This document shows, piece after piece, positions 20,817 to 22,928 of a stretch of 45,431 nucleotides of DNA. The DNA is taken from assembly GCA_937974565.1 (NCBI GenBank), contig CALJWL010000023.1, positions 1-45,431 on the forward strand. Direction: 5' to 3'. Position 1 is the stretch's first letter. Each line of letters begins with the position of its first letter. Position numbers and translations under genes: made by a program. Origin of the DNA: an uncultured Arenicella sp. (GTDB lineage Bacteria > Pseudomonadota > Gammaproteobacteria > Arenicellales > Arenicellaceae). The notes beneath the pieces are model-generated. The model had not been told where the DNA came from, did not search any database, and saw only the letters and a program-made list of their open reading frames with translations.

Positions 20817-21596
20817 ATGGCTAATATTCGTTATATTTTTTTAATCGCGCTGGTTTTGCTCGGCGCAGTGATTGGTGTGTTGTGGCAAGACGAGAACACA
20901 CCGACCATTTCTTTTACACGCCCAGCCGGTGAGTTGGATCGAACTCAGCGTAACATTGAAACGGATGAAGCCGACCTTCTTGCTGATCAGAACAAAGACA
21001 CTGCATTGAGTGAGCTTAGCCAAAACAAGTCGACGGACTCAGTCCTGTCATCACCTATACAACAAAACGACACGGTGCTGACAAGGCGTGATCAATTATT
21101 GGCTTCATCGCAAGAGCCGCTAACTGAGCAAGAATTGGCTGCACAGATCGAATTAGCTCAACGGCAGCTGGCTCAAGTTGAGGCTATAAATGTGCGTAAG
21201 CAAGCGCAGGTTGATCAGGCGCTTGCTAGAGAAAGTAGCGCAGAGCAGCCTTTAATAGAAGCCGAGCTAGCTTATCGTATTGATGGCTGGCGGCAAGCTT
21301 GGCGTACTGGTGATGCGTCAGCGTATTTTGCGTTCTACAGTGATGGCTTCAAACCCGCCAGTGGTCGATCCATTGAACAATGGAAGATTGAACGAGTTAA
21401 GCGTTTGAACCCAGAGAAGCCGATTGATCTGACTCTAGAGAACTTCACGGTCAACTATGACCCAGAAACTCAGCGCAGCCTTGTTACTTTCACTCAGTTC
21501 TATCAATCTGGAAACCATCAAGACACTTCAGAGAAACACTTGATTCTGGCCAATGAACAAGGGCAATGGAAAATTATTTCAGAAACGACAAAGTAG
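20817..21596 (+). CDS. Membrane-anchored protein with C-terminal Cds6 (NTF2-like) domain
   Basis: 259 residues. An N-terminal membrane helix (about 5-23) precedes an acidic, Gln-rich, largely helical linker (about 40-145). The C-terminal domain spans 145-259 (AYRIDGWRQAWRTGDASAYFAFYSDGF, QWKIERVKRL, LVTFTQFYQSG, GQWKIISE). It aligns by eye with the ends of the two proteins at 13918-16790: paired Trp, AYxxFY, FTQxY and a terminal W. It has no catalytic YkuD domain. It lies between ilvD and rarA; its stop is in the same frame as rarA and 21 bases before the most likely rarA start region. A function in cell-wall metabolism is inferred only from the shared domain. Confidence 0.75.
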   Translation: MANIRYIFLIALVLLGAVIGVLWQDENTPTISFTRPAGELDRTQRNIETDEADLLADQNKDTALSELSQNKSTDSVLSSPIQQNDTVLTRRDQLLASSQEPLTEQELAAQIELAQRQLAQVEAINVRKQAQVDQALARESSAEQPLIEAELAYRIDGWRQAWRTGDASAYFAFYSDGFKPASGRSIEQWKIERVKRLNPEKPIDLTLENFTVNYDPETQRSLVTFTQFYQSGNHQDTSEKHLILANEQGQWKIISETTK

Positions 21597-21617
21597 AGCG
21601 CGATAAGCTCAGAAGCC

Positions 21618-22928
21618 ATTATTAATACACCGCTCTCATCTCAACCTCTGGCCGACCGACTGCGCCCTACTCGTTTAGACGAAGTTGCAGGGCAAACCGC
21701 GTTACTGGCGCCTGACAAGCCACTTCGGCTTGCAATTGAGTCTGGAAAACTGCACTCAATGGTGTTCTGGGGGCCGCCAGGCACTGGAAAAACGACGCTT
21801 GCCAAACTGGTTGCGAAAAAAAGTGACGCGACATTTGTGTCGCTTTCAGCCGTTTTGAGTGGCGTCAAGGACATTCGAGAAGCCGTTAGCAGTGCAAAGC
21901 AGCATGCAAAAATGGGCTTTGGGCGCACAGTCTTGTTCGTCGACGAAGTGCACCGTTTTAACAAATCACAACAAGATGCTTTTCTACCGCACATTGAGGA
22001 TGGCACCATTATCTTTATTGGTGCAACGACTGAAAACCCGTCTTTTGAACTTAATAACGCTCTGTTGTCACGGGTGCGCGTATACGTGCTTGAGTCTTTG
22101 AGTGTGGCTGAAATCGTGTTGTTAATTGACCGTGCCCTGAGTGATCAAGAAAGAGGTCTCGGACATTTGAAACTGAATATGATGGACGAAGTTAAAACGT
22201 ATCTAGCGGGTGCTGTGGATGGTGACGCTCGTCGTGCATTAACGATGCTTGAGATTGCTGCCGATTTGACTGAAAACGGCCTCATTGATCAAGATCTCAT
22301 CTCGCGGATCTTATCCGGTGGCTCCACACGCCGCTTTGACAACAAAGGCGAAGGGTTTTACGATCAAATTTCTGCGTTGCATAAATCGGTGCGAGGGTCT
22401 GACCCAGACGCAGGTTTGTATTGGTTATGTCGCATGCTTGATGGTGGCTGTGACCCTAAAGTGATTGCGCGGCGAGTTGTTCGCATGGCTTCCGAAGAAA
22501 TTGGTAACGCGGACCCGAGAGCCCTGCGTATAGCCTTGGACGCATGGGAAGTTCAAGAACGTGTTGGAAGCCCTGAAGGTGAATTAAGCCTTGCCCAAGC
22601 GGTAGTTTACCTGTGCGTGGCGGCAAAAAGTAATGCGGTCTATAACGCCTATAAACAGGCGATGGCCTTGGTGAAAGAAACGGGGTCGCTTGAAGTGCCA
22701 ATGCATTTGCGTAATGCGCCCACGGCATTGATGAAAGATTTGAATTACGGTAAGGGTTATCGCTATGCGCATAACGAGGCTGAAGGATACGCCGCAGGAG
22801 AGCAATACTTACCAGAAGAAATTCAGGGCGTCAGCTTTTACCAACCTGTTGAGCGTGGTTTGGAGATTAAAATTGCCGAAAAAATGCGACGTTTACGGCA
22901 ACTCGATAACCAGAAAACGAACTCATAG
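21618..22928 (+). CDS. rarA: Replication-associated recombination protein A (AAA+ ATPase); non-canonical start
   Basis: About 436 residues. Walker A is GPPGTGKTT, Walker B is VLFVDEVHRFNKSQQD, sensor 1 is GATTENPSFELNNALLSR. The C-terminal tetramerisation region is conserved (YCxxxxKSNAVYNAYKQA-like and LRNAPTALMKDLNYGKGYRYAH). RarA acts at stalled replication forks. The family N-terminus, PLADRLRPTRLDEVAGQ, is encoded from 21645, but no ATG, GTG or TTG exists in frame between the preceding stop (21594) and ATG 21759. An ATT at 21618 or 21621 is the likely start; AGAAG at 21611-21615 is suitably spaced for 21621. Starting at 21759 would delete the conserved N-terminus just before the P-loop. 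Confidence 0.9.
   Translation: MINTPLSSQPLADRLRPTRLDEVAGQTALLAPDKPLRLAIESGKLHSMVFWGPPGTGKTTLAKLVAKKSDATFVSLSAVLSGVKDIREAVSSAKQHAKMGFGRTVLFVDEVHRFNKSQQDAFLPHIEDGTIIFIGATTENPSFELNNALLSRVRVYVLESLSVAEIVLLIDRALSDQERGLGHLKLNMMDEVKTYLAGAVDGDARRALTMLEIAADLTENGLIDQDLISRILSGGSTRRFDNKGEGFYDQISALHKSVRGSDPDAGLYWLCRMLDGGCDPKVIARRVVRMASEEIGNADPRALRIALDAWEVQERVGSPEGELSLAQAVVYLCVAAKSNAVYNAYKQAMALVKETGSLEVPMHLRNAPTALMKDLNYGKGYRYAHNEAEGYAAGEQYLPEEIQGVSFYQPVERGLEIKIAEKMRRLRQLDNQKTNS

Follow-up and report, generated by a model that had tools for sequence, protein, structure and literature searches.

The window, by which we mean the whole stretch of 45,431 nucleotides from an uncultured Arenicella species, carries on its forward strand the gene rarA (mgsA), which encodes an AAA+ ATPase of replication-linked recombination. 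The open frame of this gene (21597-22928) follows an in-frame TAG and presents no ATG, GTG or TTG (hereafter canonical codons) ahead of the conserved N-terminus of its product. The features at the locus are as follows, with positions in codons counted back from the PLA of the conserved block and pairing energies referring to the anti-Shine-Dalgarno end of the 16S RNA:

20817-21596, + strand: upstream gene of 259 amino acids with a Cds6 C-terminal NTF2-like domain (open reading frame; Pfam PF24125, E 3.1e-18)
21594-21596, + strand: TAG closing the rarA frame upstream, also the stop of the Cds6-like gene
21603-21605, + strand: ATA, a less likely start candidate (pairing -2.1 kcal/mol)
21618-21620, + strand: ATT, candidate start and first of a tandem pair; the TAG of the Cds6-like gene ends 21 bases before it
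21621-21623, + strand: ATT, favoured start, read as ATT AAT at -8 codons from PLA, a position shared with relatives
21621-22928, + strand: rarA, read from the favoured start
21645-21668, + strand: PLADRLRP, conserved N-terminal block, kept as PLADR[LMI]RP in 15 of 15 family orthologues
21759-21761, + strand: ATG, first canonical in-frame codon, the M of HSMVFWGPPGTGKT; a start here costs 38 conserved residues

The rarA frame and its conserved N-terminus

Against Pfam, the rarA product matched MgsA_C with 225.2 bits (cut-off 27; E 5.7e-67), AAA with 70.8 bits (cut-off 21.2; E 1.9e-19) and AAA_assoc_2 with 69.5 bits (cut-off 34.3). The solved RarA structure 3pvs ('Replication-associated recombination protein A'), which we take to be that of the E. 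coli protein, aligned near full-length to query positions 15-438 (E 2.7e-152). The NCBIfam RarA equivalog NF011289 scored 270 bits, under its cut-off of 570, its 300-position model covering residues 130-435 only.

An earlier note on this DNA had claimed that no ATG, GTG or TTG precedes the conserved RarA N-terminus and that PLADRLRP is encoded from 21645; reading the frame from 21594 to 21645 bears out both statements. Positions 21597-21644 make up 16 codons, with ATA 21603, ATT 21618 and ATT 21621 among them and no ATG, GTG, TTG or CTG. Among the conceivable starts that had been listed, the ATA and the two ATT codons thus stand, while CTG is an unlikely start, as CTG 21648 and 21660 sit inside PLADRLRP; a CTG start in the window, with no CTG before PLA, was rejected. 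Canonical codons are also absent from 21645 to 21758, and the first one, ATG 21759, lies 38 codons past the beginning of PLADRLRP. Codons 1-38, which a start at this ATG would forfeit, are conserved as protein, with dN/dS ratios of 0.09 between L015 and L018 and 0.10 between L005 and L008 (synonymous sites were saturated in the other seven pairs tried), and the N-terminal match between the window and its nearest relative, L002, has 82% identity. Several RarA proteins from outside the family carry near the N-terminus a DLF motif (e.g., MHDLFSQ), presumably a clamp-binding-like one, which is missing from the family RarA orthologues shown, whose N-termini are short and variable.

For a single gene, the lack of a canonical codon is not improbable, 63% of base-composition shuffles of the stretch before PLA having none; it becomes meaningful because the conserved protein begins at 21645 and because the lack recurs in relatives. 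Among 242 genes picked in the same genome, rarA had the strongest coding signal ahead of the first canonical codon, by a narrow margin (score 4.1, against 3.9 and 3.6), with a weak codon model and a sample of 354 kb of stretches plus the window (400 kb of 3.37 Mb).

Start regions of rarA among relatives

The survey of rarA start regions that the earlier note had proposed covered 152 loci: 30 from 100 relative genomes, 80 of 126 named ones, 40 start regions from other members of the order and 2 divergent family copies. They gave 143 distinct start regions, the fragmentary copies of G061, G074 and G098 being outside the sample. We call a region non-canonical when no ATG, GTG or TTG stands between PLA and the nearest in-frame stop upstream. 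Ten of the 143 regions are non-canonical, and they comprise 8 of the 15 family orthologues, neither of the 2 divergent family copies and only 2 of 126 regions elsewhere (Fisher p 8e-8 for 8/15 vs 2/126). The difference persists among upstream runs no longer than 25 codons (8 of 14 in the family vs 2 of 69 others, p 3e-6); the species being related, these p values are only a guide. Both predate the addition of 11 order-level copies, ten of which were readable and have a canonical codon, bringing the count outside the family to 2 of 136 (the eleventh, L253, runs into a contig edge). The two non-canonical regions elsewhere differ in content: L041 has both ATA and ATT before PLA, and CTG is the sole usual near-cognate codon in L223.

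All eight non-canonical family copies have an in-frame ATT or ATA between the stop and PLA (mean of shuffles 3.97, with 15 of 4000 reaching eight), and six of them have ATT (mean 1.99, 11 of 4000 reaching this number), in shuffles with base composition and exclusions kept constant. ATT occurs in all six non-canonical copies from the window's genus, and ATA in both from a sister genus (L015 and L018). The positions of these codons are more telling than their counts. At -8, where the window has ATT AAT, L005 has ATT AAC, L008 ATT AAT and L009 ATT TTT; L011 has ATT AAC at -6, and ATG AAC is found at -5 in L002 and at -7 in L014. The earlier note had held that close relatives starting canonically at this codon would count against a rare-codon start. 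L002 provides this in part, and we read its ATG AAC and the ATT AAT of the window as one start site with a switched codon, not as a refutation.

In both species of the sister genus, ATA GAT ACT CGN stands at -4 (CGC in L015, CGA in L018). L018 has just five codons, GCT ATA GAT ACT CGA, between TGA and PLA, so that ATA, separated from the stop by GCT alone, is the only near-cognate codon available. A few bases upstream of the ATA lies CGGAGUGA in L018, pairing with the 16S end at -7.5 kcal/mol, and AGAGGUA in L015, pairing at -7.2 kcal/mol.

The gene infC, which encodes IF3, offers a comparison within the same genomes. The analogy with its AUU start drawn in the earlier note extends to the family itself: infC has an ATA start in 19 of 19 copies examined (L142-L160, including the genome's own copy, L150, at C27:46217), with pairing of -5.3 to -8.0 kcal/mol and no canonical codon upstream in frame in any of them. 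As the search pattern itself requires ATA, independent support comes from the opening 14 codons of the 19 frames, where no canonical codon precedes the KKQ/KKV part. A different motif parsed 3 of 20 loci, none of the three having a canonical codon; the twentieth locus, L161, is only a fragment, and no infC match came from G010. In L015, the rarA site (AGAGGTATCTT ATA) closely resembles the infC site (GAGGTATTACC ATA). Two further genes served as controls. Copies without a canonical codon numbered none of 12 parsed for ruvB (13 loci, of which L133, a rarA fragment, was unparsed) and none of 9 parsed for pcnB (20 loci, 11 unparsed), these genes being identified by sequence motifs and a canonical codon within range counting only as a possible start. 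Genome-wide misuse of AUU in the lineage, of which these two genes give no sign, was rejected.

L007 was scored canonical owing to a GTG at -9. It also has a CTG at -14, aligned with the ATG that its near relative L006 carries at the same distance, and has kept a good Shine-Dalgarno sequence (pairing -6.0); judging from this alignment, its rarA may have a CUG start and represent a further hidden case. No match to the usual rarA turned up in some family genomes that are 80-99% complete: four of 21 (G002, G016, G017 and G018) gave RuvB-level matches only and no RarA-level match, and two have only the divergent RarA (L127 and L128, 41-43% identity). In G006 (99% complete), the usual rarA seems to have been replaced.

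A probable near-cognate start and the competing accounts

The absence of canonical starts, the conserved N-terminus, the recurrent ATT and ATA codons, the Shine-Dalgarno sequences before ATA and the ATA start of infC make initiation at a near-cognate AUU or AUA codon by initiator tRNA the simplest reading. We consider it probable from these comparisons that rarA of the window starts at AUU, most likely at 21621 or at its neighbour 21618. The initiator tRNA would read AUU 21621 (or the tandem codon at 21618) as formyl-methionine, and the start site would have switched several times in the family between AUU, AUA and AUG/GUG. In the sister genus, AUA is preceded by a strong Shine-Dalgarno sequence, a feature shared with infC of the family; this sequence is weak in the window's genus, where ribosomes ending the Cds6-like gene would probably re-initiate nearby. 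RarA output would be expected to be low and to fall when IF3 is plentiful. We infer initiation itself, the exact codon used in the window, coupling, IF3 sensitivity and any benefit from comparison.

Such re-initiation is likely, to judge by the nearness of the upstream stop. In 10 of 13 copies from the window's genus, the gene that ends upstream of rarA has a C-terminus that looks similar by eye, and re-initiation near a preceding stop is helped by a Shine-Dalgarno sequence without requiring it (excerpt of PMC2268962). The ATT of L012, seven codons before PLA, shares one base with the stop TAA of the Cds6-like gene ahead of it, so that the junction resembles an AUGA-type coupled one with AUU in place of AUG; this copy could also start at a GTG at -16.

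Several observations weigh against the near-cognate start or its regulatory part. The +1 frame also has ATT or ATA in 7 of the 8 stretches, and L003 departs from the common place, its ATT lying at -11 and an ATC at -13. A strong Shine-Dalgarno sequence, usual if not required, is missing at the ATT codons of the window (-0.7 kcal/mol); pairing is as weak or weaker in 28% of 237 genes, their first ATG being taken as the start. Coupling cannot be the whole story, since the upstream stops lie 95 bases away in L005 and 74 bases away in L009. Internal canonical codons occur soon after PLA in seven of the eight non-canonical copies, that of the window being the exception: L005 has TTG as its codon 2, codon 6 is TTG or ATG in L005, L011, L015 and L018, and L003, L008 and L009 have later ones. 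The sites at codons 2 and 6 pair at 0.2 to -3.2, but the TTG at codon 18 of L015 and L018 has a Shine-Dalgarno-like pairing of -10.3 and -11.5, stronger than that at their ATA. We take this signal to be a by-product of conserved coding sequence, and some internal product from the codon 18 site is conceivable. Finally, the non-canonical label is not clustered on the RarA tree (4 changes, with 158 of 500 shuffles as low; 29 rows, 14 of them labelled family rows, L012 being unlabelled for its ambiguous start). Given the canonical starts of sister species and this lack of clustering, a regulatory state kept over a long time is not supported; the near-cognate state may be ancestral with several reversions or may have arisen repeatedly.

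A start at ATG 21759, or at other internal canonical codons in relatives, would yield a RarA lacking part of its conserved N-terminus. This ATG is canonical and pairs at -3.3 kcal/mol, and an account of this kind could call on the internal ATG, GTG or TTG that precedes the HSM methionine in the seven copies just mentioned, above all on codon 2 of L005 and the strong site at codon 18. We nevertheless judge it unlikely. Residues 1-38 are under the protein-level constraint given by the two unsaturated pairs and align to the solved RarA, and internal starts are disfavoured because part of this conserved block would go. Moreover, the internal codons vary from species to species, and the site at 21759 is the most structured of the four candidates (minimum free energy of 80 bases -21.7; 97% of 237 genes have equal or less structure). 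The HSM methionine at 21759 is not start-specific either, since relatives with upstream ATG starts keep it.

The earlier note had offered a rare codon, readthrough of the TAG and a sequence error as options, and the comparison, with its recurrent ATT and ATA, favours the first. Readthrough of TAG 21594, fusing the Cds6-like protein to RarA, could appeal to the shared frame of the two genes in L001, L003, L008, L010 and L011, yet this is 5 of 10 copies, near the one-third expected by chance. It fails as a general account, the upstream gene being in another frame in the non-canonical L005 and L009 and a different gene in L015 and L018. The stops also vary between TAG, TAA and TGA, and L010 combines an ATG of its own with two in-frame stops spaced three codons apart; we find readthrough hardly credible. 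An error of sequence or assembly masking an ordinary start in the window is conceivable for a draft genome in 72 contigs whose nearest relative has ATG AAC. The same lack in eight genomes, one per species, and the room for ATA alone in L018 make it very unlikely. Five of the eight are also identical over the 105-base start region to named records (L031, L032, L034, L035 and L039), although these are probably the same assemblies.

The most serious challenge concerns only the regulatory part and shares the near-cognate start itself: rarA could be dispensable and little expressed, with a start codon that erodes and is restored by drift, without regulatory meaning. The variation of the start codon among sisters, the weak Shine-Dalgarno sequences in the genus, and the family genomes with RuvB-level matches only or a divergent copy are consistent with drift, while the strong Shine-Dalgarno sequences at ATA in two species speak against it. 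We would give drift a substantial chance, somewhat short of even. A bolder proposal by analogy, that rarA and infC form an IF3-controlled set in the Arenicella family whose AUU/AUA starts would link the level of this replication-fork repair ATPase to the fidelity of initiation and let RarA rise when IF3 is scarce, for instance in slow growth or stress, strikes us as rather doubtful.

Relation to known near-cognate starts

Very few bacterial genes are known with an AUU or AUA start, and gene finders use ATG, GTG and TTG (excerpt of PMC5472188). Annotations of RarA in these Arenicella-like genomes probably omit part of the conserved N-terminus. In the literature searched, limited to open-licence papers, we found no near-cognate rarA start, and rarA of S. 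aureus starts with GUG (PMC13009471, in part). The closest parallel is infC, which starts with ATT in E. coli (PMC5472188) and AUA in S. aureus (PMC13009471). As in infC, the start proposed for rarA is a near-cognate codon with the third base alone changed, the family's own infC having ATA. The two genes differ in that infC is autoregulated by its own product and has a strong Shine-Dalgarno sequence in all copies examined, whereas rarA is a gene of DNA replication and repair whose Shine-Dalgarno sequence is weak in the window's genus and whose start is canonical in some sister species.

Other systems share single traits with rarA. In E. coli, an AUU start limits the expression of pcnB, according to the title of Binns and Masters (2002), but the nine parsed family copies of pcnB have canonical codons within range (TTG among them in eight). 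In S. aureus, the excerpts of PMC13009471 describe near-cognate starts in cvfC1 (AUU), ccpN (AUA) and citZ (AUA), conserved beyond one species for cvfC1 and ccpN and yielding, in poor medium, about 10% of what AUG gives; these cases concern other genes, and extended Shine-Dalgarno motifs are stressed for them. The sigR gene of Streptomyces, which has an IF3-repressed GTC start that was overlooked in annotation (PMC5472188), resembles rarA in lying outside translation and having a non-canonical start; it differs in its codon, GTC and not AUH, and in that repression by IF3 was measured for it. Such repression is established for infC and sigR in the same source, and by analogy it might extend to the rarA start.

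With such a start, rarA would join the known near-cognate-start genes, among which it would be unusual for its recurrence in a family, its role in repair and its flickering between codons. One site switching between AUU, AUA and AUG within a single family provides a natural series for asking why such starts persist and whether IF3 controls genes outside translation.
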